Positions 24,995 to 49,124 of a stretch of 64,000 nt of DNA are shown in pieces. A program made the position numbers and the translations under genes. Numbering within the stretch: the stretch's first letter is position 1; each line of letters begins with the position of its first letter. Origin of the DNA: Cryobacterium gelidum (lineage in GTDB: Bacteria; Actinomycetota; Actinomycetes; Actinomycetales; Microbacteriaceae); NCBI RefSeq assembly GCF_004403985.1, contig NZ_SOHL01000027.1, forward strand, positions 373-64,372, in the 5' to 3' direction. Below the pieces are notes generated by a model. That model ran no database searches. It was not told the DNA's origin and was given only the letters and a program-made list of their open reading frames with translations.

Positions 24995-27702
24995 CGATTC
25001 ATTCCTTCCGTGATTTCTTCCGACGAGGGAGCTCCGAGGTAGGCCTCGAGAACAAGGCTGTCCCCGCGAACTTCAGCGGGGCTTCCTTCGGCGATCTTCT
25101 TTCCGAAGTCGACAACAACGATCTCGTCGCACAGACCCATGACGAAGTTCATGTCATGCTCCACGAGCAGGACTCCTATGCCCCAGTTCTTTGCAAGTTT
25201 TCGAACCATTTCTGCGAGCTCCGCCGATTCGACATCGCCCAATCCGGCTGCGGGCTCGTCCAGCAGCAAAATGCTGGGTTCGATAGCAACAGCGCGGGCG
25301 AGAGCGACGAGTCGACGCTTGCCGTAGGGCAGATTCTCAACCACCGTGTCGAGTTCATCAGCGAGGTCGAACTCACGGATCGCTTCGATTGTGGCCGGGG
25401 AGAGTCGCGGTTTGCTCGGCCGAAAGATCTCCAGGAAGTATGAACCCGACTCGAATGGATCGGCAGCCGTAAGCAGGTTGTCGAGAACGGTACAGTCTTC
25501 GAAAAGCTCAAGAGACTGGAATGAACGGCTGACTCCTGCCCGTGCTCGCCGCATGGCCGAGAGATCATTCATCTTGACTCCATCGAGGATGACATCGCCC
25601 TCGGTCTGCGGGGCGAAACCGGTGATCGCATCGATGATGGAGGTCTTTCCGGCACCGTTGGGCCCGATCAAGCCGAGTACCTGGCCAGGGCGGACCGTCA
25701 GGGTCACGCCTTCCACGGCGACCGTTCCGCCGTATCGAACGGTCAGGTTCCTGACTTCCAATACCTTCTGGCTGACGCGCACCGGAGCTGCGTTGGGAAC
25801 CATCAGCTCCCTGGAGGAATGCGCCTTGGAATCACGGGCCAGCTTGGGCAGAAGTCCCTTGAACAGAGTCGACATTTCCTTGGCAACACCGTTCTGGTTC
25901 TGGATCACGAAGAAGATGATCAGCACACCGCTGACGAGAGGCAGGAACGTGCTGAACTCTCCCGGGATTGCGTTCAGGAGAGCGGCACCAATCGATCCGG
26001 GAGCCAGCGTTGCGCCAAAGAGCGGGCCGAGGAGGAAACCGATTCCGCCGATCATCGCCCAGCCCACAGCCGAAATCGAGTTGAAGCTCGTGAAGGTCGA
26101 ACCGAAGACGATCGATTCGCTACGGAACGCGAGGATGATACCGCCGCACGCCGCTATGCCGGCAGCGACACCGAAGGCGTACAGCTTGGCTGACGTGATG
26201 CTGATTCCAAGTGCGGCGGCGGCTCGTTCATTCGTTCGCACCGCAATGAGCTTGCGGCCGCTTCGTCCGCGACGGATGTTGCCCACGACCAGGGTCATCA
26301 GGAGCAGGAGTCCCAGAGCCACGAGTCCATATCGCTCGGGATGAACGATGGCACTTATGTTGAGGCCGAAAAGCAGGGGTTGCCCGATTTGGGTCCCGAA
26401 GAAGCCTCCCGTCAGGAAGTCGCTGTTGAAGACCATGAACTCGAGAGTCGTGCCCAACCCGAGAGTGACAACGGCCAAGGTGATCCCCCGGGTTCGCACC
26501 GCGGGAAGCGCGATGAGAATCCCGACCGGAATGGTAGCCAAGATGCCGGAGATGAGAGCAACTTCGAAGGAGACATGCCAAATGGAAACCATTCGACCGG
26601 CGATGAATGCGCCAAAACCTGCCATCGCAAATTGGGCCAGCGAAATCTGTCCGGCATAGCCGGTAAGAAGCACGATGGACAGCGTGATCATGGCCGCGGC
26701 AATGGTGATGGTCAAGGCATCCTGCCAGCGAGGCGGAACGGCGATGATCAGGATTGCGACAGCAACGAGAATAGGAACGACGATTCTCCAGCGGATGCGT
26801 CCCGAGCCAACCAGGGGAAGCTTCTGGAAGATGTAATCCCGGAGCGGAAGAGACTTGCCCCGCACCAGCAGGATGATGACGATGGCGACAAGGGGAAGCG
26901 AGTCCGCCAGCCCCGGGATGTCCGCTGAGAAGCGTCCCACAGCGGTCTGCATCATGCCGATGACGAGCCCCGCCACCAATGCGATCGGGAACGAACGGAA
27001 GCCGGCAATCAGCGCCGTCGCCATAGCCGCAAGTACGAGGTTCGTCATCACCGAGACCTGAAGGGTGATGATGGGCGAAACGAGGATTGCCGCAATACCG
27101 GCCAGTGCGGAACCAACGGCCCAATTGATCATGGCAATGCGATCAGACGACCAGCCCAGGGTCGAGGCCGCCAATTCATTTTCAGCCACCGCTGAGGTGC
27201 CGAGTCCGAATCGTGAGTACTTGTAGACAGCCCAGAGGACGACCGTCAAGACCACGGCGATGACGACCATGATGAGTCGGTCCCAAGGAAGGACTATCGA
27301 TCCGGATAGGGGAATGACGCCTTGAGGCAACTCGGGCGTCACGAATGTCGTTCGGCCGCCGTATTTCAAGACCGCGAGGGACTGCAGGGTGAGCAGGATC
27401 CCGAGGGTCGCCACGATTCGCGCCAGCGGCGAGGCGTTCTTGAGCCGGCGCATGATGATGACCTGCACGAGAACACCGACAATTCCTGAGGCGACGACGC
27501 CGATCAAGGCCGATACCAGGAAGGGAAGCTCGAACGTCGTGCGAGCCTCGTAATAGACGTAGGCCCCGAGCATTCCGACGGCACCCTGAGCAAAATTGAG
27601 AACACCCGAGCCTCGGTAGATGAGAACAAGACCTTGCGAGGCAAGTGAGTACATTGCACCCAGGCCAAGGCCGATCAGTGCAAACCGCAGAACTTCTTCC
27701 AT
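24991..27702 (-). CDS. LivH-LivM-LivG fusion: permease-permease-ATPase of LIV-type ABC importer
   Basis: One 903-residue protein combining three normally separate subunits. Residues about 1-290 are LivH-like (GSGVLNFAQGAVGMLGAY). Residues about 305-615 are LivM-like (LLTGYAGQISLAQFAMAGFG). Residues about 640-903 are a LivG-like ATPase with Walker A GPNGAGKTS, signature LPYGKRRLVAL and Walker B ILLLDEPAAGL. Such fusions are known but uncommon, and a triple fusion fixes subunit ratio. I see no frameshift or duplicated stop. The promoter region, shared with hyuA in divergent orientation, has two operators. Confidence 0.93.
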   Translation of the reverse strand: MEEVLRFALIGLGLGAMYSLASQGLVLIYRGSGVLNFAQGAVGMLGAYVYYEARTTFELPFLVSALIGVVASGIVGVLVQVIIMRRLKNASPLARIVATLGILLTLQSLAVLKYGGRTTFVTPELPQGVIPLSGSIVLPWDRLIMVVIAVVLTVVLWAVYKYSRFGLGTSAVAENELAASTLGWSSDRIAMINWAVGSALAGIAAILVSPIITLQVSVMTNLVLAAMATALIAGFRSFPIALVAGLVIGMMQTAVGRFSADIPGLADSLPLVAIVIILLVRGKSLPLRDYIFQKLPLVGSGRIRWRIVVPILVAVAILIIAVPPRWQDALTITIAAAMITLSIVLLTGYAGQISLAQFAMAGFGAFIAGRMVSIWHVSFEVALISGILATIPVGILIALPAVRTRGITLAVVTLGLGTTLEFMVFNSDFLTGGFFGTQIGQPLLFGLNISAIVHPERYGLVALGLLLLMTLVVGNIRRGRSGRKLIAVRTNERAAAALGISITSAKLYAFGVAAGIAACGGIILAFRSESIVFGSTFTSFNSISAVGWAMIGGIGFLLGPLFGATLAPGSIGAALLNAIPGEFSTFLPLVSGVLIIFFVIQNQNGVAKEMSTLFKGLLPKLARDSKAHSSRELMVPNAAPVRVSQKVLEVRNLTVRYGGTVAVEGVTLTVRPGQVLGLIGPNGAGKTSIIDAITGFAPQTEGDVILDGVKMNDLSAMRRARAGVSRSFQSLELFEDCTVLDNLLTAADPFESGSYFLEIFRPSKPRLSPATIEAIREFDLADELDTVVENLPYGKRRLVALARAVAIEPSILLLDEPAAGLGDVESAELAEMVRKLAKNWGIGVLLVEHDMNFVMGLCDEIVVVDFGKKIAEGSPAEVRGDSLVLEAYLGAPSSEEITEGMNR

Positions 27703-27841
27703 CAGGTTCTTCTTCCATCAAATTCGGATTCAACAAAGGTCCGGAAGGGCATGAAGCTCCTTTCGATCCTCATTGATCGGGGTTGGACAGGGGCAAATGC
27801 TCGACCTGCTGCGCCATCCCGCAGGTACCTGATATTTCTAC

Positions 27842-27851
27842 CAATCGTCTG
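27842..27851. promoter_or_regulatory. TetR-type operator 5 (CAATCGTCTG, one mismatch)
   Basis: It lies 140 bp upstream of the LivHMG start in the divergent promoter with hyuA. The extended site is CCAATCGTCTGG. Confidence 0.6.
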
Positions 27852-27934
27852 GTGGAAAGTCAACTATTGCTTTTTTGTCGATCACGCCCGAATTCTCTGG
27901 CCGGCAGCGCTCTAGAAACAAACACCAATTCAAA

Positions 27935-27944
27935 CAAACGCTTG
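27935..27944. promoter_or_regulatory. TetR-type operator 6 (CAAACGCTTG)
   Basis: It lies 138 bp upstream of the hyuA start. TTGACA is embedded at its right edge, so it may overlap a -35 element. Confidence 0.65.
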
Positions 27945-28081
27945 ACAGATTTATCTCGCCTTTGCGACACTTATCGAGAGCTCACGGATCCGTCGTTTCC
28001 GCGCAAGCGGTCAGAGCGCAACAGGGCAAATGTGATCATGACGCAACGGGGCGTTGCAATGAAATGGAGAACACAAGGACT

Positions 28082-30175
28082 ATGAAATCGCAGCTGGTTG
28101 AAAAAAACGACTATGCCGTTGGAGTCGACGTCGGGGGGACCCATACCGACCTCGTCCTCTCGGGGCCCAATGGTCTCGTACGCAGTAAGTCGTTCACGAC
28201 ACATGGTGATTACAGTGTTGGCATCTTCAATGCCCTTGAGCTTGCAGCGAACCAGCTCGGCCAGGAACGCGATGAAGTTCTTGCCCAATGCCATGCGTTC
28301 ATCAACGGTTCAACTATTGTCACCAACGCCATCACCGAGTTGCGTGGTGCCAAAGTAGGCGTGCTCATCACACGCGGATTCAAGGACACGTTTCGCCTGG
28401 CCAGCGGCGCCCGCCGCGTTGAATACGACGACCATCTCCAGACTCCCCCGCCGGACGTCGTTGCGCGGGACTGCATTGAGGAAATCAGTGAACGCGTGAT
28501 GAGCAATGGCGAGATCGCTGTTCCCCTCGATGAAGTCGAAGTCCGTGCCGCCGTCCGTCGGCTTCGCGACAATGGTGTTGAAGCTATTGCAATTTGCTAC
28601 CTGTGGTCGTTCAGCGACGGCACGAACGAGAAGCGAACCCGCGAGATTGTTCTCGAAGAGATCCCCGGCATTTTCATCACTCTCTCTTCTGAGGTTCACC
28701 CCGTCGTCGGCGAGTATCCGCGATTCATGACCGCCGTTTTCAACTGCCTGTCACACCGGGCTACGACACGATATGTCGAAGGCCTGCAGACGCAGCTCGG
28801 CAACGCGGGTTTCACCGGTACTCTCACGTTCTTTCAGGGAATCGGTGGATCCGTCGGCGCCGAGGCCGTTCAGGCCAAGCCTGTCACTCTGATGCAATCC
28901 GGCCCGGCGGGCGGCGTGATGGGTGCCCGGCACGCTGCCGCCCGACTCGGACTGACGAATATCTTCGTCGGTGACATGGGTGGAACGAGTTTCGACACGG
29001 CGGTTCTCCCCAACCTCGAGCCGTCCATCGCCAAGCAGGCGACATTCGGACCGTTCCACACCGGAATCAACATGTTGGACATCGTCTCAGTCGGCGCCGG
29101 CGGCGGCAGCGTGGCATGGCTCGACGGACGAGGCGTTCCCCAGGTGGGCCCGCACAGCGCGGGTTCCGAGCCCGGCCCCGCCTGCTACGGACGCGGCGGA
29201 ACAGAACCGACGGTTACCGATGCGAACGTCATCCTGGGGTTGATCGATCCAGGAAACTACCTCAATGGTCGCCACCAGCTCAGCGTCGCGGATGCGTCAG
29301 CAGCTGTGAAGAACCGAATTGGGGATCCGCTGGGCTGGGATGTCAAGCAGGCCGCAGCAGGCATATATGACCTTGCCGTCATCGAAATGGCCAACGCCTT
29401 ACGTGTTGTCAGCATCGAACGAGGACATCACCCTCGTGATTTCACGTTCTTCTCGTACGGCGGAGGGCTCGGCTTGTTTGCCGTGGAAATCTGCCGCCGA
29501 TTGGGCTGCCCGAGTATCGTCATCCCCGATAATTCCTCGGCGTTTTCCGCGTATGGCGTTCTGATCGCGGACTACGTGCGTCAGTACGAGCAAACAGTCA
29601 ACTGGGATCTCAGCGATCCGAGCCAGGCCGATCGGATCAACGAGGCCATGGCGGTCATGCTCAGCCAGGCCAAGCACGACGCTGGTCTCGAGGGGATTGC
29701 TCCAGGGGATCTCTCGGTTGAGCGAAGCGGTGATTTCCGTTTCCTCGGACAGACATATGAAGTGACCGTTCCTTTGCAAGACGTGGATTTCGTTCCAGCC
29801 GACGCTGCTCGCCTCGCGGACGATTTCCCCCGCGTCTACGAGCGCAACTACGGCGAAGGAACAGCATGGAAGGGCTCACCTGTTGTTCTCATGACCCTCT
29901 CGACCCGTGTCATCCACCACCGCCCGAAGCCGACTGAGCGTCAGCAGGCGGTTGTCGTCGGAGTCCCCACGCCGCAGCCTGTCGGCGAACGCTCCGTCTT
30001 CCTACCCAGCGAGCGACGCGACGCAGTGCTCCCCATCTACGCCGAAGCAGACCTCATCCCCGGCGCCGTGGTCAACGGCCCCTGCATCGTTGACGTCGGA
30101 GATACGACAATCTACGTACCCGAAGGCTCCGAATGTGGCCGTGACCAGTACTTCAATTTCACGCTCACCGCGTAA
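28082..30175 (+). CDS. HyuA-type subunit of an ATP-dependent ketone carboxylase or oxoprolinase-family enzyme
   Basis: A 697-residue hydantoinase A/oxoprolinase (N-methylhydantoinase A) family protein. The N-terminal phosphate-binding stretch is AVGVDVGGTHTDLVL, and the middle has QSGPAGGVMGARHAA and VGDMGGTSFDTA, typical of the ATP-binding ASKHA fold. With HyuB it either hydrolyses a cyclic amide with ATP or carboxylates a ketone (acetone and acetophenone carboxylases). The zinc-ribbon end of the neighbouring HyuB favours the carboxylase branch. The ATG at 28082 is preferred, with GGAGAA upstream; the in-frame ATG at 28064 is possible. It lies behind an operator and 21 bp before hyuB. Confidence 0.88.
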   Translation: MKSQLVEKNDYAVGVDVGGTHTDLVLSGPNGLVRSKSFTTHGDYSVGIFNALELAANQLGQERDEVLAQCHAFINGSTIVTNAITELRGAKVGVLITRGFKDTFRLASGARRVEYDDHLQTPPPDVVARDCIEEISERVMSNGEIAVPLDEVEVRAAVRRLRDNGVEAIAICYLWSFSDGTNEKRTREIVLEEIPGIFITLSSEVHPVVGEYPRFMTAVFNCLSHRATTRYVEGLQTQLGNAGFTGTLTFFQGIGGSVGAEAVQAKPVTLMQSGPAGGVMGARHAAARLGLTNIFVGDMGGTSFDTAVLPNLEPSIAKQATFGPFHTGINMLDIVSVGAGGGSVAWLDGRGVPQVGPHSAGSEPGPACYGRGGTEPTVTDANVILGLIDPGNYLNGRHQLSVADASAAVKNRIGDPLGWDVKQAAAGIYDLAVIEMANALRVVSIERGHHPRDFTFFSYGGGLGLFAVEICRRLGCPSIVIPDNSSAFSAYGVLIADYVRQYEQTVNWDLSDPSQADRINEAMAVMLSQAKHDAGLEGIAPGDLSVERSGDFRFLGQTYEVTVPLQDVDFVPADAARLADDFPRVYERNYGEGTAWKGSPVVLMTLSTRVIHHRPKPTERQQAVVVGVPTPQPVGERSVFLPSERRDAVLPIYAEADLIPGAVVNGPCIVDVGDTTIYVPEGSECGRDQYFNFTLTA

Positions 30176-30196
30176 AGAACCAGAGAGAAGACAGTC

Positions 30197-32401
30197 ATGA
30201 ATTCTGCAAAGACGCAGGGGACCCTCGAATACGATCTGATCGATGTCGAGGTTCACCAGAAGTCGATTCGCAACATTGCCAACGAAATGGCCATCACCCT
30301 GATGCGGACATCGGGTTCCCCGGTCGTCACCGACGCCAAAGACTTCAGCACCTGCATCCTGGATGCAAACGGTGAGCAGCTCGCGTTCTCGGGATTCGTC
30401 TCGTTCCACGTCAGCACCGCTCTCCTGGGCGTTCAGGCCGTGATGCGCCGAGTCGACCCCGCGAATCTTCGGCCCGGCGACGCCTTCGCCTGCAACGACC
30501 CGCACACGTCCGGCGCCGTGCACCAGGGCGACGTGGGTATCGTTATGCCTTTCTTCTTCGAGGACAAGCTCGTGGCCTGGGGCTATGTGAACGAACACGT
30601 CCTCGACATTGGCGGTTCTGCCATTTCCGGTTTCGCGCTGGGTGCCGTGGACTCCTTCTCAGAATCCCTCGCGTTCCCCGGAACGCGAATTGCTCGTGAT
30701 GGCGCCATCGATCCTGAGTGGGAAGGTTTCATCGCTAATAACGTACGCATGGCGGGAACAGTCCTCAACGACATTCGCAGCATGATCGCCGCCAACAATG
30801 CCGGCCAACGCCGTCTCGAAGCGACATTGGCTGAAATCGGCCTTGACCGCTTCACAACGTTGAACGAAGAGAGCAAGCGGCTCTCTGAGATCGGCCTGCG
30901 TGCCATCATCACGTCAATGCCGGATGGCACGTATGACAGCAGCGACTGGGTCGAATTCGACGCCCGCGGCATTGAAGAACTCCACGAGATTCACTGCCGC
31001 CTCATCGTGGAAGATGATGAGATAACACTGCAATTCCGCGGTGGACCTCAGACGGATTCATTCGTCAACGGTGTCGAACCGTCGGTTCTCGGCCAGTCGT
31101 GGACGACGATCTTGGCGCAGCTGGCCTATGACATCCCCATCAATGCCGGAATTTGGCGTCCGGTCCACTTCGATCTGGGACCCAAGGGTTCCATTGTCAA
31201 CGCGGTGGCCCCGGCTCCCGTCACGATGTCACACATCCAAACGGGAATGCGCGTCAACAAGTTGCTCATCGACGTGTTCTCCCAGGCCTGCTCCTTTAGC
31301 AAGAATCCCGTCATCGGCGCTCGTGTTGCCGGACAGCCTGCCCAGAATCAAACCTATTTCACCGCCTTCGGCGTTGATCGCCGGACGGGGAACCCCACTG
31401 TTTCGTTCTCGATGTCCGTGGGTATGTCCTCGGGCGGAGCGGGACAAAGCGTTGGCGACGGCATGGAAATCTATGCCGCGCAGGCGATGGCCGGGTGCGA
31501 TATGCCCGACGTTGAGGCTGAAGAGATGAGCCAGCCCGGAATGATCCTCTGGCGCCGCGTGGAACCTGACACCGGTGGCGCCGGAGTGTTCCGAGGCGGT
31601 AACGGTGTCAACACCTGTCTCGCCATTCTGCACTGCGACCGGATGAATGCCGGCGCCTACACGAACAGCGCCTATGTTCCTCCTCGTGGCGTTGCCGGCG
31701 GATTCGCCGGTTCGGCCGGCACGTGGAAGCTCCTTCGCGACACAAACATTCTTGACCTCCTGGAGACGGGAATATACCCCACCGAAGAATCGCTTCAGGG
31801 ACACTCCATCCCCGGTCCTACGCAATCCGCGTCACTCACGCTCAACCGAGGTGACGTCTACACCGTCATCCACGGCGGCGGCGGCGGCGCCGGTGACCCG
31901 CTCCTGCGGGAAACGCACCGTGTGAGTGCGGACGTCTCTGACGGCTACGTCTCCGCTGGAGTCGCTCACGATGTGTACGGTGTCGAGCTTGCCGAAAATG
32001 GCAGCGTTGATGAGGTCGGAACCATGGCTCTTCGTGAGTCGATCCGTGAAGCACGAATCGGGGGCAAAGTGAAGCGTCCGATCCTGAGCAACGCGCCGAC
32101 CTTCGCGCCTCTGGGTATCGTCAATGAGCGCTGGGCCTGCAACATGTGCGGCGAGGACCTAGGCGCCAGCACGGGCAACTGGCGCACACAGGCGGTGACG
32201 AAAGAACAAGAAATTTCCGGCCGTTTCGCGGAGCTCAAGTCGAACGTTCGCAAGCGCGTGCAGTTCGAAGAGGTTGTTCTTCGAGAAAACAGCTGCCCGG
32301 GCTGCGCAAGTTCGCTCGTGGTCGACGTCACCCTCGACGGACACCCCCTGGTTCAGTCCAGTCGTCCCGGTGTCTTCGAGCGGTTCCCCGCGGCAATTTA
32401 G
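30197..32401 (+). CDS. HyuB-type subunit with fused C-terminal zinc ribbon (acetone/acetophenone-carboxylase-like)
   Basis: A 734-residue hydantoinase B family protein, longer than plain HyuB (about 550-600). The HyuB core starts with DVEVHQKSIRNIANEMAITL and includes FACNDPHTSGAVHQGD and HIQTGMRVNK, with a glycine-rich HGGGGGAGDPLLR near 560. The extra C-terminal part holds CNMCG and CPGC pairs, flanked by FEEVVLRENSCPGC, like the small zinc-binding subunit of acetone carboxylase (AcxC) and acetophenone carboxylase. I infer that the gamma subunit has been fused. A long hairpin at 32411-32459 terminates the operon. Confidence 0.85.
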   Translation: MNSAKTQGTLEYDLIDVEVHQKSIRNIANEMAITLMRTSGSPVVTDAKDFSTCILDANGEQLAFSGFVSFHVSTALLGVQAVMRRVDPANLRPGDAFACNDPHTSGAVHQGDVGIVMPFFFEDKLVAWGYVNEHVLDIGGSAISGFALGAVDSFSESLAFPGTRIARDGAIDPEWEGFIANNVRMAGTVLNDIRSMIAANNAGQRRLEATLAEIGLDRFTTLNEESKRLSEIGLRAIITSMPDGTYDSSDWVEFDARGIEELHEIHCRLIVEDDEITLQFRGGPQTDSFVNGVEPSVLGQSWTTILAQLAYDIPINAGIWRPVHFDLGPKGSIVNAVAPAPVTMSHIQTGMRVNKLLIDVFSQACSFSKNPVIGARVAGQPAQNQTYFTAFGVDRRTGNPTVSFSMSVGMSSGGAGQSVGDGMEIYAAQAMAGCDMPDVEAEEMSQPGMILWRRVEPDTGGAGVFRGGNGVNTCLAILHCDRMNAGAYTNSAYVPPRGVAGGFAGSAGTWKLLRDTNILDLLETGIYPTEESLQGHSIPGPTQSASLTLNRGDVYTVIHGGGGGAGDPLLRETHRVSADVSDGYVSAGVAHDVYGVELAENGSVDEVGTMALRESIREARIGGKVKRPILSNAPTFAPLGIVNERWACNMCGEDLGASTGNWRTQAVTKEQEISGRFAELKSNVRKRVQFEEVVLRENSCPGCASSLVVDVTLDGHPLVQSSRPGVFERFPAAI

Positions 32402-32410
32402 CGAACGTAC

Positions 32411-32459
32411 ACCACGCACAACAGCCCCGGACCTGAAGGTCCGGGGCTGTTTGCGTGGT
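32411..32459. terminator. Strong bidirectional terminator hairpin
   Basis: A 13 bp perfect stem (32421-32433 with 32438-32450, loop TGAA) is extended by a further 8 bp pairing of ACCACGCA with TGCGTGGT. It lies ten bases after the hyuB stop and between convergent genes. Confidence 0.85.
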
Positions 32460-32619
32460 CGGCCTGCGAACGGTGTGTGCGGTTCACGAGCGGATGCCGG
32501 ATCAGAACCGGCTCGCGGCAACACCCCGATGGGCGGCCACGTTCGCGATCGAGGAGACGATCAGGCGCGCCAAACGACCGCGCCGAGCAGCCAGAGCAGC
32601 CATAGCAGCGGTCGTACGC

Positions 32620-33543
32620 CTAGAGAATGGCTAGCGCGTTTGCCGTTGAGCTCGCTCCCCCGGTCAGGGGAAGCGGTGCGGCGGAAAAGAGGAAGTCGTA
32701 GGCGTTGAGCTCGAAGCACCTGTCAGCGAGGGCATCCAGATCGAGTAGCTCTGCCAGGGCGAAGCCCAACCCGGGGATCAGCCGACGGTGAAGCGAACCA
32801 TTGCGAGGATCGCCAGGAGCGCTCTCCACAGCGGGGTTGTCCGACGCGACGGCAGCAACCTTATTGTCCCAAAGGAATCGAGCCATTGCCTCGGTAGAGG
32901 CTATTCCAGCAAACTGGTCCCCAACGCGGGAGACATCTCCGCCGGTGGAAGCTCGACGTCGATATTCGCCCATCCACCCGGTGCGAACACAGAGGATGTC
33001 TCCGGGCTGCAGGCGCTGTCCTTGGAATGCGATGATGTCGGCGATTTCAGACGCTTCGACGGCGTCCTCCACGAACGGGTCCCACGCGATGTTGTGCGCG
33101 GCTCGATACCGAACGATATCGACGAGCAATCCGCGACCGACGATGCCGCGCTGGGCCCAGTGGTGCATTCCCAGTGTTGCCCGGGCTTCGTCGCCGTCGG
33201 TGATTCCACCGTAGAATCCGAATTCGCGGGCCCGGATGTGCGTCAGGCCGTCCCATTGTGATGAGGACTGAGGATTGAAATCGTTCAAGGTGTCTTCGAA
33301 CGTGTTCTTCCCGGTCTCCGTCATGAGGTGCCCCAGGCTGGGGCGGTCGAAGAGGGGCGGCGCGAAGTCGTCGAAGGGAACGTTGAGAGAAATCGTCTCC
33401 CCCGTACGAACAGCATGGCTGGCCTCCAGCGTCGCCGCCGGGCTCAGAAACGCGAGCGTTCCCAACGACACCGGGAGCACGCCCCACGAGTGCTTGATGC
33501 CGATAGTGCCGATTTCAGGGAGGTCATCAAATGCGGGAATCAT
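32620..33543 (-). CDS. Cyclase-family hydrolase (PF04199), QWDGLTH type
   Basis: A 307-residue protein of the kynurenine-formamidase/cyclase family. In place of HxGTHxD it has SQWDGLTHIRAREFGFYGG, a variant found in one branch of the family, with an LCVRTGWM strand and a later DNPAVESAP segment. It differs strongly from the cyclase at 15516-16346, so the two probably hydrolyse different intermediates. It is last in the leftward operon BCCP, biotin carboxylase, carboxyltransferase, enoyl-CoA hydratase, cyclase, and starts 16 bases after the hydratase stop. Confidence 0.82.
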   Translation of the reverse strand: MIPAFDDLPEIGTIGIKHSWGVLPVSLGTLAFLSPAATLEASHAVRTGETISLNVPFDDFAPPLFDRPSLGHLMTETGKNTFEDTLNDFNPQSSSQWDGLTHIRAREFGFYGGITDGDEARATLGMHHWAQRGIVGRGLLVDIVRYRAAHNIAWDPFVEDAVEASEIADIIAFQGQRLQPGDILCVRTGWMGEYRRRASTGGDVSRVGDQFAGIASTEAMARFLWDNKVAAVASDNPAVESAPGDPRNGSLHRRLIPGLGFALAELLDLDALADRCFELNAYDFLFSAAPLPLTGGASSTANALAIL

Positions 33544-33559
33544 GGGGATCCATTCGTGG

Positions 33560-34387
33560 CTAAAATTTCATTTCGCCGGAGTTGAAGTGTGCAATGGCGC
33601 CCTTGAGCCCACGTTCCTTGATGAGGTTCTGCAGGAGTTGGACCTCAGGCGTGAGATGCAGGAGCGCATCTGTTTCGGCACCCATCCGCCCAATCGTGAC
33701 GAGGCCCTGAAGTTCGGAAACCCGATTAATGGCCTCCTTCTTTAGCTTCAGAATCGCCGTCGGCGTACGAGCGATGGAGAGCGCAAGCGCTCGAACGTGT
33801 TCATCCAGAGCATCTGCGGGGACAGCCTCTGTGGCCCAGCCCCATTCGACAGCGGTCACGCCGCTAATGCGATGGCCGGCGTCGAAGCTCATGAGCTTTG
33901 CGCGCTTGGGACCGACGATGGTTGCCCACAACGGGGAGATGAACCCACCCCCGATAGGAACAGCCGGGGACGCGGCAATGACGGCATCTTCAGCGACGAT
34001 GGTGATGTCGGAGAACACACAAAGCTGCGTCGCTCCGGCCATGCAGAAGCCGTGAACGGAGGTAATGACAGGAAGCGGGTGGCGCCACACTTTCAGAAAC
34101 AGGTCGATGTTGGCGAGCTGACGGTCACGGTCTTCAACCGGGCTTCGCTCGTGCGCGTAGCCAATTTCGTTAGAGTCCGAACCGACGTCATAGCCCGCCG
34201 AAAATGCTCGGCCGCTGCCCCTGATGACGATGACTCTGCTGTCTGACGTTGCCAGGAAATCCAACGCGTGGCCTAGTTCTTCCAAGAGCTGATCATTCAG
34301 GGCATTGAGCCGATCAGGCCGGTTGAACGTGATCCAGGCGACGTTGTCTTCCTCGAGGAGGGTGATGGCTTCGTAGTCTGCGGTCAT
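33560..34387 (-). CDS. Enoyl-CoA hydratase/isomerase family protein
   Basis: A 275-residue crotonase-fold protein. It shows ITFNRPDRLNALND at the N-terminus, the oxyanion segment RGSGRAFSAGYDVGSD and the second oxyanion segment VHGFCMAGATQLCVFSDI. The Glu pair typical of hydratases is not obvious (PIGGGFISPLWA), so the reaction could be isomerisation, C-C bond hydrolysis or hydration of an unusual acyl-CoA. It lies four bases after the carboxyltransferase stop and belongs to the biotin-carboxylase operon. Confidence 0.85.
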   Translation of the reverse strand: MTADYEAITLLEEDNVAWITFNRPDRLNALNDQLLEELGHALDFLATSDSRVIVIRGSGRAFSAGYDVGSDSNEIGYAHERSPVEDRDRQLANIDLFLKVWRHPLPVITSVHGFCMAGATQLCVFSDITIVAEDAVIAASPAVPIGGGFISPLWATIVGPKRAKLMSFDAGHRISGVTAVEWGWATEAVPADALDEHVRALALSIARTPTAILKLKKEAINRVSELQGLVTIGRMGAETDALLHLTPEVQLLQNLIKERGLKGAIAHFNSGEMKF

Positions 34388-34391
34388 GGCC

Positions 34392-35864
34392 TTACTTGCT
34401 TCCGGTCAATTTGCTGAGGTGAACGCTGAAGTCAGGAGATGACACCGAGAAGGCTGTGGCCGTGCTCTTCTCTCCAACCAAGTCGACGATGTTCTCGACG
34501 ATCCTGTTTGCACTCCGGCGAGGGTCCTTGCGCACAGGTCCCGCCGCGAGGGTCTTGTTCACCTCATCTTCGGAGTTCATGTAGCGAAGCAGCAGCTCCT
34601 CGTCCGAGATCCCGGCGGCAAAGCGCGAACGAATCTCCTTCAGGCTGGGCTCGGGGCGCTCCCACTGGGCAATTTGCTTGGCGCGCGCACTGGAGAGAAC
34701 GCGGTCGCGCACGTTCTGGTTCACGGTGCCGTGAATGGGCCCATAGTGACCGAGAAGGTAATGGATGACCTCGTCAGGAACCAGGCTGTAGGGGTCGCCC
34801 GTGACAATATTGAGCACCGCTTGTATTCCGACGAACTGGGAGAACGGAGTAGCCATGATCGGTTCGCCGAAATCCAAACGAACCTGAGGGATCGCGTTCA
34901 GGACCTCATTCAGCCGGTGAGCCATCCCATGCTTGCCGAGCTGGTTGATGAGCGTGCCCGTCATGCCACCGGGAAGCTGGTGATCGTAGATCCGGGGGTC
35001 GAACTCGGCAGGCACTCCAAGTAAGTGGTTTCCGGCCTTGGCTGCTCGAATGAAATTCTCGGCAACGGGCGCAAACATGTTCCGGTCGAGCGAATGGGTG
35101 TGGCCCATGTATTCGACGATGTCGACCATGCTCTCTGTCGACGGAAGAGATGCCCCATTGGCGAGAGGGCGTGACGCGGTGTGGATACGGTTAAAACCGC
35201 TCTCAATCCCCACCATGTAGTTGTGCTGGGCCATCCCGGCGTTGTTATGGCAGTGAAGCTCAAGAGGCATATCGCCGGCCGCCGCGCGGATTGCCGGCAA
35301 CAGGGTCTTTGCGCGTTCCGGTTTCAGAATGCCGGGCGCATCCTCTACATAGATGGAACGCACTCCTGCCCACGATGCCATTTCCTTTGCTTGGGCGGCG
35401 AAGAACGCGTCGTCGTGAATCGAGGTCAAGCCGTACATGATCGACGGGAGCGCCTCCCCGCCAGCCGCGGCAATCACATCGACCAAGCGCTTCATCACCG
35501 GGAGGTCGAAAGCACAGTCGTAAATCCAAAAATTCTCAACGCCGTGCTTGATCAGCGTTTGGACCCACAGGTCGATGATTGATTCAGGGGCGCGGGCGAA
35601 TCCCATCACGCTGTGGGTGCGCATTCCGCAGCGCGTTTTGTTGCCCGGCAGGCCCTTGACGAGGAAGTCCATCGTGTCCCATGGATCGTCGTTGAACTCC
35701 CGAACGAGGACGGTGAAGACACCTGGGCCCGTGAGATCAATGGTCTCGAATCCCGTCTTGGCCAGGTACGGCAGGGCATCTGCGGCATCGTAGGCGCGCA
35801 TCCGCAATCCCCAGAGGCTCTGAGTTCCATCGCGCAGGGTCTGGTCTACAAATTCGACATTCAT
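34392..35864 (-). CDS. Biotin-dependent carboxyltransferase (transcarboxylase 5S / pyruvate carboxylase CT-like)
   Basis: A 490-residue protein with an HMGL-like TIM barrel and a PYC/OADA domain. Metal and substrate residues are visible in FVDQTLRDGTQS at the N-terminus and ELHCHNNAGMA near residue 210, and PGGMTGTLINQLGKHGM is typical of 5S/OadA proteins. It should transfer CO2 from carboxybiotin to a keto acid, classically pyruvate. The ATG at 35864 follows GAAGGAAAAAGC. Biotin carboxylase and BCCP are separate genes upstream, giving a three-subunit carboxylase. It may provide oxaloacetate or carboxylate a pathway intermediate. Confidence 0.87.
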   Translation of the reverse strand: MNVEFVDQTLRDGTQSLWGLRMRAYDAADALPYLAKTGFETIDLTGPGVFTVLVREFNDDPWDTMDFLVKGLPGNKTRCGMRTHSVMGFARAPESIIDLWVQTLIKHGVENFWIYDCAFDLPVMKRLVDVIAAAGGEALPSIMYGLTSIHDDAFFAAQAKEMASWAGVRSIYVEDAPGILKPERAKTLLPAIRAAAGDMPLELHCHNNAGMAQHNYMVGIESGFNRIHTASRPLANGASLPSTESMVDIVEYMGHTHSLDRNMFAPVAENFIRAAKAGNHLLGVPAEFDPRIYDHQLPGGMTGTLINQLGKHGMAHRLNEVLNAIPQVRLDFGEPIMATPFSQFVGIQAVLNIVTGDPYSLVPDEVIHYLLGHYGPIHGTVNQNVRDRVLSSARAKQIAQWERPEPSLKEIRSRFAAGISDEELLLRYMNSEDEVNKTLAAGPVRKDPRRSANRIVENIVDLVGEKSTATAFSVSSPDFSVHLSKLTGSK

Positions 35865-35924
35865 GCTTTTTCCTTCGAAGCGTCGGGGCATGCACACATA
35901 GTGAGCGGTGACAAGGGAACGTGC

Positions 35925-37283
35925 TTAGGCAGCGGGCCGGGCCGGAAGAAATGATTCTTCGAGCCATTTGGTGGTGATGGGTTGGGTGCGGAAAGTCTCG
36001 TTACGCATAATGTCGAGCTGAAGGTCGATTGTCGTGTCGACGCCGCGAACGGTCGCTTTGGCCAGCGCGCGGGCCATCAGGTCAACTGCCTGCTGCCGGT
36101 CGGGCGCATGAACGATTATCTTCGCGATGAGCGAGTCATAGTAAGGGGGCACGTGAGCTCCGTTGTGTGCGTAGGTATCCACGCGAATGCCCGTGCCCTG
36201 AGGCATCGTCCACTCCTCGATCAGTCCGGGGTTGGGCAGAAAATTATTGCGAGAATTCTCGGCGTTAATCCGGCACTCGATGGCATGCCCGGTGATAGAA
36301 ACATCCTCTTGCGAAAACGACAGGGGCAAGCCTTGGGCGATACGAATCTGTTCGCGCACGATGTCGATTCCCGATACTGCCTCAGTGACGGGATGCTCAA
36401 CCTGAACTCGGGCATTCACCTCCAGAAAGACGAAGGCGTTTCTTTCTACGTCAACCAGGAACTCGGCTGTTGCTGCCCCGACATAGTTGAGGGCTGTCGC
36501 CAGGTCAACTGCAGCCTGCCTGATCCGGACGATGAGGTCGTCCGGAAGACCGACACTGGGTGCTTCCTCGATGATCTTCTGGTATCGACGCTGCGCTGAG
36601 CAGTCACGTTCGCCGAGGTGGCAGACGGTTCCCTGGGAGTCGGCGAGGATCTGAATCTCAATGTGTCGAGCCTTCTCGATGTAGGGCTCGAGATAGAGGG
36701 TTCCGTCACCGAAGGCACGCAGTGCCTCGGTGCTCGACCGGACAAAACCCTGGCTGAGGTCATCGGGATTCCTCACGACGGTCATTCCACGTCCACCACC
36801 GCCGGCCGACGCTTTGAGCAGGAGAGGGTATGCGTTCAAGTGCTCGGCCGTCCGGATCGCGTCTTCGACGCTGGTCAGCCCCGGAGATCCCTTGCCCGTG
36901 GGAATACCAATGGACTCCGCCACCGCGCGTGCCTGAAGCTTGTCGCCCGCGCGACGCATGACCTCAGCCGGAGGCCCGATGAACGTGATCCCGTTTTCTT
37001 CACAGGCGTCAACAAGAGTCGGCCGCTCGGAAAGAAACCCATAGCCGGGGTGGAGTGCATCGCAGTTCGCGTGACGCGCCGCTGCCACGACCCGTTCAAC
37101 GGAGAGGTAGCTTTCCCCCGCTGCTGCCGGCCCGATGACGACGATTCGATCTGCGAGTTTGGCCCCGAGCGAATCAACGTCGGCGGCCGAGACGGCGAGG
37201 ACACTCTCGATATTTTCGTCGAAGCAAGCCTTGATGATACGAACGGCGATTTCACCGCGATTGGCAATCAGAATGCTGCGCAC
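35925..37283 (-). CDS. Biotin carboxylase subunit (AccC-like)
   Basis: A 452-residue ATP-grasp enzyme that carboxylates biotin on its carrier. The start SILIANRGEIAVRI, the glycine-rich ASAGGGGRGM loop, ARHIEIQILAD and the catalytic EVNARVQVEHPVTE segment are all intact. The GTG at 37283 is chosen because it lies four bases after the BCCP stop and gives the family N-terminus. It works with the BCCP at 37288 and the 5S-type carboxyltransferase at 34392. No AccA/AccD or acyl-CoA carboxylase beta gene is present nearby. Confidence 0.92.
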   Translation of the reverse strand: MRSILIANRGEIAVRIIKACFDENIESVLAVSAADVDSLGAKLADRIVVIGPAAAGESYLSVERVVAAARHANCDALHPGYGFLSERPTLVDACEENGITFIGPPAEVMRRAGDKLQARAVAESIGIPTGKGSPGLTSVEDAIRTAEHLNAYPLLLKASAGGGGRGMTVVRNPDDLSQGFVRSSTEALRAFGDGTLYLEPYIEKARHIEIQILADSQGTVCHLGERDCSAQRRYQKIIEEAPSVGLPDDLIVRIRQAAVDLATALNYVGAATAEFLVDVERNAFVFLEVNARVQVEHPVTEAVSGIDIVREQIRIAQGLPLSFSQEDVSITGHAIECRINAENSRNNFLPNPGLIEEWTMPQGTGIRVDTYAHNGAHVPPYYDSLIAKIIVHAPDRQQAVDLMARALAKATVRGVDTTIDLQLDIMRNETFRTQPITTKWLEESFLPARPAA

Positions 37284-37287
37284 GGGG

Positions 37288-37797
37288 TCAGTTCGCGGTG
37301 ACGTCAACGCTGAACAGGGGTGTTCCATATTCAACGGTCGCCCCGTTTTCGGCATGCACAGCCGTCACGATCCCGGTGACCGTGGAGGCAACGTTGTTCA
37401 TCAGCTTCATGATTTCAACGATGCACACCGTGTCCCCGACCTCAACGCGCTGACCGACCTCAATGAAGGGAGTGGCGCCGGGTTCGGGGGAACGCCACAG
37501 AACCCCAATGCTGGGTGCCGTGATGGCGAAGTCCGTGGCATTGGCCGGAGCGTGTGCCGTTGCTGCCGGCGAGGACGGAATCGGAGCGGAAACCGCCACT
37601 GCGGGGGCCGCAACAGGGGCGACGACCGGCTCCGCGACCGGTGCAGGAGTCGTCATCGCGGTTGATCCGCCGGGAAGGTGGGCGCCGTTACGAGCAACGG
37701 AAATCTTTACGTCGCCGACGCTCACGACGGCCTCATCCCAGTCCGATTCGTGCAGGGCTGCGACAATGCTATTGATATCAGCGGACGAAAGACTCAC
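37288..37797 (-). CDS. Biotin carboxyl carrier protein (AccB-like)
   Basis: A 169-residue carrier. A short N-terminal helix region is followed by a Pro/Ala-rich linker (about 45-95) and a C-terminal biotinyl domain with the modification site EIMKLMN. Of the possible starts, the GTG at 37797 has AAAGGAG six bases upstream; the ATG at 37815 lacks a clear site. It is first in the five-gene leftward operon, divergent from the CoA-transferase genes, with operator 7 in between. Confidence 0.88.
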   Translation of the reverse strand: MSLSSADINSIVAALHESDWDEAVVSVGDVKISVARNGAHLPGGSTAMTTPAPVAEPVVAPVAAPAVAVSAPIPSSPAATAHAPANATDFAITAPSIGVLWRSPEPGATPFIEVGQRVEVGDTVCIVEIMKLMNNVASTVTGIVTAVHAENGATVEYGTPLFSVDVTAN

Positions 37798-37855
37798 TGT
37801 GGGCTCCTTTGCCATTCTCGGTCTGCCAGATTATGACCGACATGTTTAAATCAAA

Positions 37856-37865
37856 CAATCGGTTG
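37856..37865. promoter_or_regulatory. TetR-type operator 7 (CAATCGGTTG)
   Basis: It lies between the divergent BCCP and CoA-transferase operons, 59 bp from the BCCP start. The extended form is CAAACAATCGGTTGGCAG. Confidence 0.65.
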
Positions 37866-38008
37866 GCAGTTTTAGTATATGGTCACCACAACGAGGCGGT
37901 CAAGCTTTGTTGTCAATACGAAGTTCAACAAACTGATTCTGGTTTATCGAACAGACGTATGGTTGACTAGCTCAAGACCCAGCCAAGAACACGAAGTGAA
38001 GGTGTCCG

Positions 38009-38701
38009 GTGATTGACAAAGAAGTCCACGACGCGGGAGAAGCCGTTTCGGGAATCGAAAACGGCGCCACGATCATGATCGGCGGGTTCGGCCCTCCCGG
38101 CCAGCCCGTCGCGCTGATAGAGGCACTCCTGAACCGCGGGGTCAGCGACCTCGTGGTCATCAACAACAATGCCGGGGCGGGCGGGGACGCCATCTCCCGA
38201 CTTTTTGGAGCCGGCCGCGTTCGCAAAGTGATCTGTTCCTTCCCCAAAGCAATCGGCTCCACTGTTTTCGATGAACTTTTTCTCGCCGGCAAGATTGAGC
38301 TCGAGCTCGTCCCTCAAGGCAACCTCGCCGAACGCATCCGTGCTGCGGGTGCCGGAATCGGAGGTTTCTTCACCAAGACCGGTTACGGCACAGAGCTGGC
38401 CGCGGACAAGGAAGTGCGCCTCATCGACGGGGAACACTACGTGTTCGAGACACCCCTGCATGCAGATTTCGCCCTAATCCGGGCATCACGTGCAGATCGC
38501 TGGGGCAACCTCGTCTACCGCAAGACGGCGAGAAATTTCGGCCCCGTGATGGCTGCCGCAGCCAAGGTAACCATTGCCGAAGTCGATCACGTGGTGGCAC
38601 TCGGCGAACTGGATCCCGAGATCATCGTGACCCCCGGAATCTATGTGGACCGGTTCATAAGCACGGGCTACGCCCCGACCAACCCGAAAGTGACATCATG
38701 A
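38009..38701 (+). CDS. 3-oxoacid CoA-transferase, subunit A
   Basis: A 230-residue alpha subunit of a family I CoA-transferase (ScoA/PcaI-like). It has GATIMIGGFGPPGQP at the N-terminus and RIRAAGAGIGGFFTKTGYGT in the middle. It transfers CoA from succinyl-CoA or acetyl-CoA to a 3-oxo acid. The GTG at 38009 follows GAAGG. The stop overlaps the start of subunit B (ATGA). In the carboxylation model it activates the beta-keto acid made by HyuAB. Confidence 0.92.
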   Translation: MIDKEVHDAGEAVSGIENGATIMIGGFGPPGQPVALIEALLNRGVSDLVVINNNAGAGGDAISRLFGAGRVRKVICSFPKAIGSTVFDELFLAGKIELELVPQGNLAERIRAAGAGIGGFFTKTGYGTELAADKEVRLIDGEHYVFETPLHADFALIRASRADRWGNLVYRKTARNFGPVMAAAAKVTIAEVDHVVALGELDPEIIVTPGIYVDRFISTGYAPTNPKVTS

Positions 38702-39357
38702 GGCTTTCTCGCCACCAAATTGCGGCACGAGTGGCGAAAGACATCCCCGACGGCGCCTATGTGAACCTCGGTATCGGCGTACCGACACTCGTGGCGGATT
38801 ATCTACCCGAGGACAGGGAGATCATTCTCCACACAGAGAACGGGATGCTGGGAATGGGTGGCGCCGCGCTCCCGGGACAAGAAGATGCGGACCTGACCAA
38901 CGCGGGAAAGGTCTACGTCACCGAAGAGATCGGCGCGTCGTATTTCCATCATGCCGATTCCTTCGCGATGATGCGTGGAGGACACATCGACTTCTGCGTC
39001 ATGGGTGCCTACCAGGTTTCGGCGCGGGGCGACCTTGCCAACTGGCGCACGAACTCGACCACGTCCATTCCCGGCGTTGGCGGGGCGATGGACCTGGCAG
39101 CGGGAGCGAAACACGTCTACGTCGTGATGGACCTCTTTTCTAAGACCGGCGAGAGCAAACTCGTGCAGAACTGCAGCTACCCGCTCACCGGTGCCGAGTG
39201 CGTGGAACGGATATACACGGACGTGGCCGTGTTCGACGTCATTCCTGCCGGCGTTCGGATTCTCGAAATCTTCGATGATCTGGATGCGGGTCAGCTCTCG
39301 ACGCTGGTGGGATTCACCCTCATCGACGCGACAACGTCCGCAACCGTAAGGAACTGA
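38698..39357 (+). CDS. 3-oxoacid CoA-transferase, subunit B
   Basis: A 219-residue beta subunit. The catalytic glutamate is Glu47 in HTENGMLGMG. Other conserved parts are VNLGIGVPTLVADY and GGHIDFCVMGAYQVS. It is coupled to subunit A by a four-base overlap and is followed after one base by the SnoaL-like gene. Whether it is specific for acetoacetate, 3-oxoadipate or another acid cannot be read from the sequence. Confidence 0.93.
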   Translation: MRLSRHQIAARVAKDIPDGAYVNLGIGVPTLVADYLPEDREIILHTENGMLGMGGAALPGQEDADLTNAGKVYVTEEIGASYFHHADSFAMMRGGHIDFCVMGAYQVSARGDLANWRTNSTTSIPGVGGAMDLAAGAKHVYVVMDLFSKTGESKLVQNCSYPLTGAECVERIYTDVAVFDVIPAGVRILEIFDDLDAGQLSTLVGFTLIDATTSATVRN

Positions 39358-39358: not shown

Positions 39359-39721
39359 ATGCCAACGAACTTCGACATAGCCCGTGCCTACTGGGATGCC
39401 GAAATCACGCGAGATCTCGATGCCATAATGGCCTCCTACCGAGACGATGCAACTTTTGTGGCACCGGGTTGGAACCTCCAAGGTCACGACGCCATTCGTG
39501 GCTTCTATGCAAACGCGAGCGACCTCTATCCGGGCCTTGAGGTCGCTATCGTGCACGAAACCACATCGGGTGCCGAGTCCGCATGTGAGTGGCAGTCCGT
39601 CCTCATCACGTCGGCAGGCATCAGATACCCGCTTCGGGGCATCAACTGCATGACGGTGATCGGCGGCAAGTTCGCCGCCGTCCGGTCGTTCTATGACACG
39701 GCGGAACTCACCTCCGCCTGA
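39359..39721 (+). CDS. SnoaL/NTF2-like small protein
   Basis: A 120-residue cone-shaped NTF2-fold protein (ARAYWDAEITRDLDAIMASY, DDATFVAPGWNLQGHDAIRG). Members include polyketide cyclases, ketosteroid isomerases and small hydratases or isomerases. It begins one base after the CoA-transferase B stop, so it is in that operon. It may isomerise a keto intermediate, but no catalytic assignment is possible. Confidence 0.8.
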   Translation: MPTNFDIARAYWDAEITRDLDAIMASYRDDATFVAPGWNLQGHDAIRGFYANASDLYPGLEVAIVHETTSGAESACEWQSVLITSAGIRYPLRGINCMTVIGGKFAAVRSFYDTAELTSA

Positions 39722-39790: not shown

Positions 39791-40417
39791 CTAATCGTGC
39801 GCGGCCGGTTGGGCTTCCAGCCCGTTGAACGTCAGCTCGACAAGGGCGGAAACGAGCTGTTCGTCCGAGAAGCTCCCCGCACTTCGCGATGGCCAGAAAC
39901 GAACGTTGTTCATCGCGCCGATCACAAAGCGTGTCAGGAGCCTGGCATCCAGCTGACTGCGAATCTGTCCGCTTTCCTGCGCCGCGGTGATCAGATCACG
40001 CACATGCCGTTCAAACTGCAGGCCGCGGTCTTTCGTCAGCGCCTTCCTCTCCCCCGTGAGGTTCCGTGACTCCGTGAAGAAGATGTTGGCGCGTTCAACG
40101 TTGGCCAGGTACCACAAGCTCTGTCGCGTCACGTATTCCAGCAACTCGTCGATCGGATCCAGGCCCAAGGCGGCAACCGCGTCGGCAATGACCATGGACT
40201 CCGAGTGCGATTCATCGAGGATGCGAAACAGGAGCTCTTCTTTGGAAGAGAAATAGTGGTAGAGGCTGCCCTTGAGCACACCCACGCGATCGGCGACCTC
40301 TTGAATTGAGGTGCCGGAGTAGCCTTTTTCCGACATGACGGAGATTGCTGCGGCGATGACGCTTCCGTCTCTGTTCCGGCCCTCCACCGAGGGGCGTTCA
40401 GATGATTTCGCTTTCAT
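39791..40417 (-). CDS. TetR-family regulator of the catabolic regulon
   Basis: A 208-residue repressor. The N-terminal helix-turn-helix (SGTSIQEVADRVGVLKGSLYHYF, residues about 30-52) is followed by a ligand domain like those of KstR2/FadR-type acyl-CoA sensors. The ATG at 40417 is chosen because the protein then has normal length; the longer frame would read through the operators. Two CAAWYGWTTG-type sites lie upstream of its start, and eight more lie at other promoters of the cluster. I infer that it represses all of them and is released by a pathway acyl-CoA. Confidence 0.88.
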   Translation of the reverse strand: MKAKSSERPSVEGRNRDGSVIAAAISVMSEKGYSGTSIQEVADRVGVLKGSLYHYFSSKEELLFRILDESHSESMVIADAVAALGLDPIDELLEYVTRQSLWYLANVERANIFFTESRNLTGERKALTKDRGLQFERHVRDLITAAQESGQIRSQLDARLLTRFVIGAMNNVRFWPSRSAGSFSDEQLVSALVELTFNGLEAQPAAHD

Positions 40418-40483
40418 GATTACCCATTTCTCAGCCAGGGTGGACTGCGCCGCGGTGCCTCTAATGTCTTTATAAAATACTAC

Positions 40484-40493
40484 CAATTGTTTG
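40484..40493. promoter_or_regulatory. TetR-type operator 8 (CAATTGTTTG)
   Basis: It lies 67 bp upstream of the tetR start, between tetR and the divergent FadB-like gene. The extended form ACCAATTGTTTGGT is nearly symmetrical, consistent with autoregulation. Confidence 0.65.
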
Positions 40494-40537
40494 GTATTTT
40501 GTCGGCATTTCCAACGGGTTTTTTTGGCTCTGACAAC

Positions 40538-40547
40538 CAAATGATTG
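40538..40547. promoter_or_regulatory. TetR-type operator 9 (CAAATGATTG)
   Basis: It lies 54 bp from operator 8 and 73 bp upstream of the FadB-like start. It is followed at once by TTTG, so several overlapping half-sites are possible. Confidence 0.6.
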
Positions 40548-49118: not shown

Positions 49119-49124
49119 TACGGC

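Follow-up and report, generated by a model that had tools for sequence, protein, structure and literature searches.

A candidate ketone-carboxylation regulon in Cryobacterium gelidum combining a biotin-dependent carboxylase with a HyuAB enzyme that bears a fused gamma domain

A gene cluster of about 35 kb, lying in a 64,000-nucleotide stretch of Cryobacterium gelidum contig NZ_SOHL01000027.1 (the window), encodes both HyuAB, a putative ATP-dependent enzyme whose B subunit ends in a gamma (zinc-ribbon) domain, and a three-part biotin enzyme made up of a biotin carboxyl carrier protein (BCCP), a biotin carboxylase (BC) and a carboxyltransferase (CT) of the PYC/OadA type (Table 1). We see an even chance that the cluster is a single catabolic regulon in which the biotin enzyme would be the main ketone carboxylase and HyuAB an accessory ATP-dependent enzyme; the gene content makes a route of ketone carboxylation, CoA transfer and thiolysis plausible. 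An earlier sequence-only reading had proposed a carboxylating ketone pathway built on HyuAB. Its carboxylating route fits the regulon, but the best carboxylase candidate is the biotin enzyme, which it did not mention, and not HyuAB. That no described pathway has this exact gene set agrees with our search of the open-licence PubMed Central (PMC) literature, where none was found.

Comparison of the promoters yielded a palindrome, with consensus AMCAAWCGNTTGG, that is carried by seven promoter regions of the cluster. The pattern MCAAWCGNTTGR, with one mismatch allowed and palindromes counting on both strands, has 19 matches in the window vs. 7.6 expected, a number reached in 0 of 100 shuffles. 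A matrix built from nine window sites finds 11 sites at a score threshold of 16, ten at cluster promoters and one at 54339, against a null mean of 0.17 (12 Markov sequences), with leave-one-out scores of 14.8–23.4. At a loose threshold of 8.5 the window shows no excess over the null. Across the 3.47 Mb genome, AMCAAWCGNTTG has ten exact matches, seven of them in the cluster, and the reversed control pattern has one. A repeat search of 37800–38030 found nothing, and a promoter and terminator scan gave no excess over shuffles. The operator is presumably bound by the TetR protein of the cluster, which would control the regulon. With two of the ten promoter sites (plus-strand positions in Table 1) before HyuA, this shared operator supports placing HyuAB in the same regulon as the CoA-transferase and thiolases, as the sequence-only reading had supposed.

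The operator is also present in related clusters from other families of actinobacteria. Nine chosen related loci (200 kb) contain 33 sites (null 0, 0, 0 and 2), and 17 control loci (335 kb) contain three (null 2, 0, 1 and 1). Among 79 CT loci from named genomes, sites occur in 18. Of the 24 loci whose CT identity is 54% or more (L029–L052), 16 carry one, as do two of the other 55. Where HyuAB relatives are present, a site scoring 20.8 precedes the called start of HyuA by 33 bases in an Amycolatopsis locus (L170), and in a Frankiales locus (L168) sites flank the genes HyuB-HyuA-LivF-LivHMG, which have cyclase 1 and LivK as neighbors, like the window. The sites of L167 and L171 are located farther downstream.

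The biotin module is encoded on the minus strand within 28082–39357 and is followed by genes for a crotonase-fold protein and cyclase 2. The closest named relative found is a contig of C. levicorallinum Hh34, where the CT is 100% identical and the neighboring proteins are 86–100% identical. After it, the best CT loci come from Leucobacter, Subtercola, Georgenia, Amycolatopsis, Rhodococcus, Saccharopolyspora and Pseudonocardia. Two Rhodococcus plasmids carry 64–65% relatives, and in genomes searched around R. yunnanensis, a CT is present in 3 of 37, at 43–64% identity. Several of the best CT loci repeat a gene set, in varying order, of the acyl-CoA dehydrogenase pair ACD1-ACD2, thiolase 1, EtfBA, ScoAB, TetR, cyclase 1, BCCP-BC-CT, crotonase, cyclase 2 and FadB. 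In a tree of 52 chosen CT rows, which does not include the HpeB and XccC sequences themselves, the window CT, together with its relatives, groups with the CTs of three clusters that contain a kinase and is separate from PYC-B and OadA (100/96). These clusters, from Sphingomonas bisphenolicum, Pseudomonas putida YC-AE1 and Rhizobium leguminosarum, have the layout BCCP-BC-CT-HAD with a kinase-type gene, which resembles the Hpe and Acv pathways; in S. bisphenolicum and P. putida we take the Tm-1-like gene to be the Acv kinase. By these relationships, the biotin enzyme appears to be the best-supported candidate ketone carboxylase of the regulon and related to the proven Hpe/Acv carboxylases.

The active-site lysine of PYC-type CTs is carbamylated and binds the metal. 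Where aligned Protein Data Bank homologs have this Lys, the window CT has Glu185, and Glu occupies the position in all 33 rows with at least 47% identity; lower rows often have Tyr or another residue. As a more general observation, the residue at this site varies by clade among Lys, Glu, Tyr and Gly. The kinase expected from the Hpe/Acv comparison was sought with two queries: the Amycolatopsis kinase subunit is unmatched in this genome (1e-10) and matches 13 of 26 genomes, mostly over partial length, and UPF0261 (PF06792) is likewise unmatched here and matches 5 of 19 genomes. PMC13101465 reports that Hpe-type kinase and carboxylase genes share a cluster in just 52 of 836 cases. Two genomes with the biotin module, L. 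weissii and R. yunnanensis, give no match to the Amycolatopsis-type kinase subunit. In Amycolatopsis echigonensis (L034, 2104–10104), parts of a pyruvate phosphate dikinase (PPDK)-type kinase and a tyrosine phosphatase directly precede a window-type BCCP-BC-CT, in what may be a new Hpe-like cluster; similar genes occur together in R. oxybenzonivorans (L027).

HyuA and HyuB are both intact. In HyuB, PF02538 covers residues 13–568 and PF08882 (Acetone_carb_G) residues 643–722 (E 1.2e-7, 32.4 bits, cut-off 21.0), so the C-terminal double-CxxC domain noticed in the sequence-only reading is recovered by a curated model. Its CxxC pairs at 648 and 700 (Cys 648, 651, 700 and 703) have the spacing of Cys22, 25, 75 and 78 of Apc-gamma, with positions from PMC5214803. 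Alignment, from which the L170 row was left out, shows NW(K/R) and RE-x2-CP blocks in common with two free-standing gamma subunits whose genes are annotated next to those of acetone carboxylases; one of these subunits (Rhodobacter) itself has no CxxC pairs. By the superfamily definitions for hydantoinases and ketone carboxylases given in PMC8453981, HyuA keeps its ATP motifs (DVGGTHTD at 16, DMGGTSFD at 298 and GSEPGP at 361) and HyuB has the Asp-His-Asp-His metal site as D49, H109, D112 and H134, aligned with Asp41, His99, Asp102 and His124 of caprolactamase B. HyuA scores 503.6 bits on the caprolactamase A (CapA) model vs. 353.0 on ApcC, and HyuB 205.4 on CapB vs. 106.2 on ApcD, all below the cut-offs, which are 1000 for CapA and CapB and 1500 for ApcC and ApcD. 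A housekeeping oxoprolinase was considered and rejected: HyuB is the sole PF02538 match in the genome and operator sites of the regulon lie before HyuA.

A HyuA tree of 55 rows was calculated after duplicates and rows shorter than 380 residues were dropped, with the root drawn at the midpoint. The fused gamma domain was scored with a purpose-built hidden Markov model (HMM); a row without gamma is one with none found in its locus including about 1.5 kb of flank, a search that a distant separate gene could escape. The clade that contains the window HyuA has 12 rows (100/100), and a fused gamma domain is present in 11 of them. The sister group (99/93) has 21 rows (99/92): caprolactamase, hydantoinase and 19 rows in which no gamma was found. 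Acx-type rows and ApcC lie across the drawn root, together with six gamma-less rows from the genus Cryobacterium, and a second group of 12 (84/84) holds eight further fused-gamma rows. By tree position, HyuA thus belongs neither with Acx/Apc nor inside the hydantoinase/caprolactamase clade. Since it falls outside both groups, the tree bears out neither the ketone-carboxylase kinship that the sequence-only reading expected nor the firm grouping with hydantoinases that it named as the contrary outcome. On this basis we place HyuAB in a fused-gamma branch that is uncharacterised.

An accessory role is suggested by its distribution. Among 26 genomes (25 hand-picked from CT-bearing loci plus C. gelidum itself), HyuB at 55% identity or more is present in six, or in 5 of the 25 others. 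In a phylum-wide search at E 1e-60, 2 of 396 genomes matched, C. gelidum and one at 28%, and among 60 relatives, C. gelidum included, two matched, C. gelidum and one at 99%. Fisher tests gave p = 5e-7 (5/25 vs. 0/396, with C. gelidum still counted in the 396) and p = 0.008 (6/26 vs. 2/60), comparisons in which the search thresholds differ between the sets. In L. weissii and R. yunnanensis no HyuB match exceeds 31%. Because the biotin module recurs in other genomes and HyuAB mostly does not, the biotin enzyme would be the strongest carboxylase candidate and HyuAB an accessory.

Clues to the function of HyuAB come from a sister subfamily, in which fused-gamma HyuAB is encoded with crotonase genes in Rhodococcus pseudokoreensis, Acrocarpospora and Saccharopolyspora. 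All three clusters have a degradative 3-hydroxy-3-methylglutaryl-CoA (HMG-CoA) reductase; an HMG-CoA lyase is present in two of three, and a CaiB CoA-transferase likewise in two of three. The Rhodococcus lyase and reductase pass their own cut-offs, and its CaiB comes closest to the succinyl-CoA:mesaconate and glutarate CoA-transferase models without reaching the cut-off of either. From this gene context, the sister HyuAB may form 3-methylglutaconate by carboxylating a C5 enoic acid, feeding HMG-CoA. The company of HMG-CoA genes and a dicarboxylate-type CoA-transferase favors carboxylation in the fused-gamma branch, and for the window HyuAB carboxylation appears likelier than lactam hydrolysis. 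In two Solirubrobacterales loci, L167 (5791–9935) and L171, genes for a zinc-type oxidoreductase, a member of the acetoacetate-decarboxylase family and a crotonase come after a window-type HyuB, and an amidase gene lies on the other strand.

These elements can be assembled into a tentative pathway. The leucine/isoleucine/valine (LIV)-type importer would take up the compound, perhaps an alicyclic hydroxy acid, and the two short-chain dehydrogenases/reductases (SDRs) would oxidize it to a ketone. BCCP-BC-CT would then carboxylate this ketone next to the carbonyl and ScoAB would form the beta-ketoacyl-CoA. A non-hydratase crotonase, a cyclase or both would cleave the ring or chain, and beta-oxidation would finish the cleavage product. 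In the least certain step, HyuA would phosphorylate a carbonyl, perhaps also bicarbonate, and HyuB most likely would carboxylate the phosphorylated carbonyl at its metal site, widening the intake of ketones or enoic acids.

Several of these enzymes bear on the substrate. The SDRs score 303.0 and 285.1 bits on the trans-4-hydroxycyclohexanecarboxylate dehydrogenase model (ChcB1; cut-off 400, next models 222–225), ACD1 is nearest pimeloyl-CoA dehydrogenase (190.9 bits, cut-off 623.85), and thiolase 2 is nearest 3-oxoadipyl-CoA thiolase (Table 1). Together they give a hint of an alicyclic acid, for example a hydroxy- or oxo-cyclohexanecarboxylate, and our guess is that the sequence of alicyclic hydroxy acid, cyclic ketone, carboxylation and opening fits best. 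In two Rhodococcus plasmid loci, a 58%-identity SDR lies beside a P450, 3–15 kb from the CT; a P450-first route of that kind was rejected here, with no match to this P450 in the genome (E 1e-20). Acetone or another simple methyl ketone seems less likely, as it would leave the SDRs, cyclases and dehydrogenase pair unexplained. In an alignment that omitted the L032 row, the crotonase-fold protein does not have either of the glutamates kept in the hydratase domain of the window FadB. A BadI/MenB-like ring hydrolase is not claimed for it, as no such signature was seen.

Against a regulon led by the biotin enzyme stand several observations. A kinase was not found here and HpeCBA acts on phosphorylated hydroxyphenylethanones, not on free ketones, as described in PMC9618137; the three kinase-cluster CTs (L184, L185 and L197) have Lys where the window CT has Glu. 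As for HyuAB, a HyuB match is present in only 4 of the 79 CT loci (L029, L034, L048 and L049; flanks of at most 10 kb), L169 has no operator site near HyuAB, and the top-scoring models for both subunits are those of caprolactamase. The authors of the Apc structure consider a direct role of gamma in carboxylation unlikely (PMC5214803). All three substrate hints lie below curated cut-offs.

Alternatively, HyuAB would be a caprolactamase/hydantoinase-like ATP-dependent hydrolase that opens a cyclic amide, imide or similar ring before the ketone steps, with a purely structural gamma domain. The model scores, caprolactamase as the best solved relative of HyuAB, the sister position of the caprolactamase and hydantoinase clade and the weak kinship of cyclase 1 with isatin hydrolases all speak for this possibility, which we nevertheless regard as unlikely. 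Gamma, present in Acx and Apc, is absent from Hyd complexes and unreported in hydantoinase/oxoprolinase complexes according to PMC5214803, and the Pfam-scanned window proteins include no amidase or aminotransferase, although an amidase gene does lie near HyuB in L167. That HyuAB is itself the main ketone carboxylase, leaving the biotin enzyme to another step such as anaplerosis or a CoA ester, seems to us distinctly improbable. Its gamma domain, the paired operator sites before HyuA and the inclusion of ScoAB in the regulon would suit such a role; however, most related loci have the biotin module and ScoAB with no HyuB within 10 kb, L. weissii and R. yunnanensis among the genomes without a close HyuB, and the CT groups with ketone-carboxylase clusters instead of PYC/OadA.

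The missing kinase raises the further idea that HyuAB replaces it, phosphorylating the ketone for the biotin enzyme. HpeCBA requires a phosphorylated ketone (PMC9618137), both kinase queries are unmatched in this genome, and HyuA-type subunits phosphorylate carbonyls, according to PMC8453981. L. weissii and R. yunnanensis, with the biotin module and neither the kinase subunit nor a HyuB above 31%, and Amycolatopsis, which carries kinase and HyuAB together, make this very unlikely.

The remaining genes named in the sequence-only reading are in place: a 3-oxoacid CoA-transferase, two thiolases, two cyclases, two SDRs, a flavin monooxygenase (FMO) and a LIV importer, with the thiolases, cyclase 1, the SDRs, the FMO and the importer outside 28082–39357.

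Table 1. Genes of the cluster, shared operator sites and sister loci (window positions unless a locus is named).
Feature	Position	Strand	Family, model or remark
Two SDR dehydrogenases	11142–11900, 11967–12791	-	nearest NCBIfam model ChcB1
LivK, LIV-type substrate-binding protein	12884–14257	-	PF13458
Metallo-beta-lactamase-fold (MBL) hydrolase	14371–15519	+	PF00753
Cyclase 1	15501–16346 (start used)	+	PF04199
ACD1/ACD2, two-part acyl-CoA dehydrogenase	16435–18476	+	
Thiolase 1	18244–19662 (start used 18481)	+	PRK07851, 649.4 bits, cut-off 580
EtfB, EtfA, membrane protein	19701–22526	+	
Thiolase 2	22989–24173	-	nearest pcaF, 525.1 bits, cut-off 597 not reached
LivF of LIV-type importer	24311–24994	-	
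LivHMG, fused permease/permease/ATPase of LIV importer	24991–27702	-	903 residues
HyuA, ASKHA-type ATP-binding subunit (HyuA/oxoprolinase family)	28082–30175	+	PF05378, PF01968, PF19278
HyuB with fused C-terminal gamma (zinc-ribbon) domain	30197–32401	+	PF02538, PF08882
Cyclase 2	32620–33543	-	PF04199; 44–57% relatives in several CT loci
Crotonase-fold protein	33560–34387	-	PF00378
CT, PYC/OadA type	34392–35897	-	PF02436, PF00682
BC	35925–37355	-	PF02786, PF02785, PF00289
BCCP, EIMKLM motif	37288–37815	-	PF00364
ScoA, 3-oxoacid CoA-transferase subunit A	38009–38701	+	TIGR02429, 335.9 bits, above cut-off
ScoB, 3-oxoacid CoA-transferase subunit B	38698–39357	+	TIGR02428, 272.4 bits, above cut-off
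SnoaL-like protein	39359–39721	+	PF12680
TetR-family regulator	39791–40567	-	PF00440, PF17932; 57–60% relatives in L030, L032, L033
FadB-like hydratase/3-hydroxyacyl-CoA dehydrogenase	40545–42674	+	PF00378, PF02737, PF00725
AMP-forming acyl-CoA ligase	42667–44127	-	PF00501
FMO-like monooxygenase	44176–45576	-	PF00743
Operator sites, LivK/MBL intergenic	14252, 14361 (14252–14376)		scores 19.8, 19.1
Operator site, before ACD1	16425–16440		score 24.7
Operator site, before EtfB	19687–19702		score 21.1; not in matrix building
Operator sites, LivHMG/HyuA intergenic	27839, 27932 (27839–27947)		scores 18.5, 19.5; leave-one-out 14.8, 15.8
Operator site, BCCP/ScoA intergenic	37853–37868		score 21.6
Operator sites, TetR/FadB intergenic	40481, 40535 (40481–40550)		scores 20.8, 23.5
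Operator site, before FMO gene	45609–45624		score 21.6
Sister fused-gamma HyuAB loci	L023 8240–19165; L175; L176		

The TetR domain begins at residue 71, so the true start of this gene is probably downstream of 40567. Fused LivHMG relatives (51–64% identity) are present in other actinobacterial CT loci. The membrane protein after EtfA (21594–22526, plus strand) has relatives at 51–56%, of which the one in Leucobacter (L033) narrowly passes PF01292 (cytochrome b561); it is perhaps an electron outlet of the electron-transferring flavoprotein. Beyond the cluster, four adjacent minus-strand genes (46121–49667) pass NCBIfam cut-offs for the Mycobacterium Rv1678–Rv1681 families, namely a membrane protein, an acyl-CoA dehydrogenase, a protein resembling substrate-binding proteins and a radical SAM protein. 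A 568-residue open frame at 51700–53406 (plus strand) is a candidate gene with no Pfam or NCBIfam match.

Few ketone carboxylases have been characterised. The cluster seems to pair a biotin enzyme with a second, unusual enzyme driven by ATP in one regulon, and its readable operator and compact gene set make the role of kinase-free Hpe relatives testable. The fused-gamma HyuAB branch should be useful for the role of the gamma domain and for the divergence of carboxylases and lactam hydrolases.

The nearest known systems are HpeCBA of Rhodococcus rhodochrous GD02, the AcvCDE type of Sphingobium SYK-6 and XccABC of Aromatoleum, which have the same three-part biotin enzyme with a PYC/OadA-type CT. 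The window CT groups with those of Hpe/Acv-like clusters, and its product would likewise pass to CoA activation and C–C cleavage; here, however, a kinase was not found, Glu185 replaces Lys and a CoA-transferase replaces the ligase. Aerobic cyclohexanecarboxylate degradation is similar in the two SDRs nearest ChcB1 and in the P450 beside a related SDR in the Rhodococcus plasmid loci, but the ChcB1 cut-off is not reached and that P450 is unmatched in this genome. To our knowledge, ring opening by carboxylation is no part of that pathway. CapAB and the ATP-dependent hydantoinases give the top HMM scores and share the metal tetrad and ATP motifs, yet the known enzymes have no gamma, the window HyuA lies outside their clade and the curated cut-offs are not reached. 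Compared with Acx and Apc, gamma is fused to HyuB and HyuA lies outside the Acx/ApcC group; the second HyuA (alpha′) of Apc was not seen, with one HyuA among the window proteins scanned. The window enzyme resembles them in having an alpha subunit, a beta subunit and a gamma domain, and shares with acxABC the gene order A-B-gamma given in PMC5214803.

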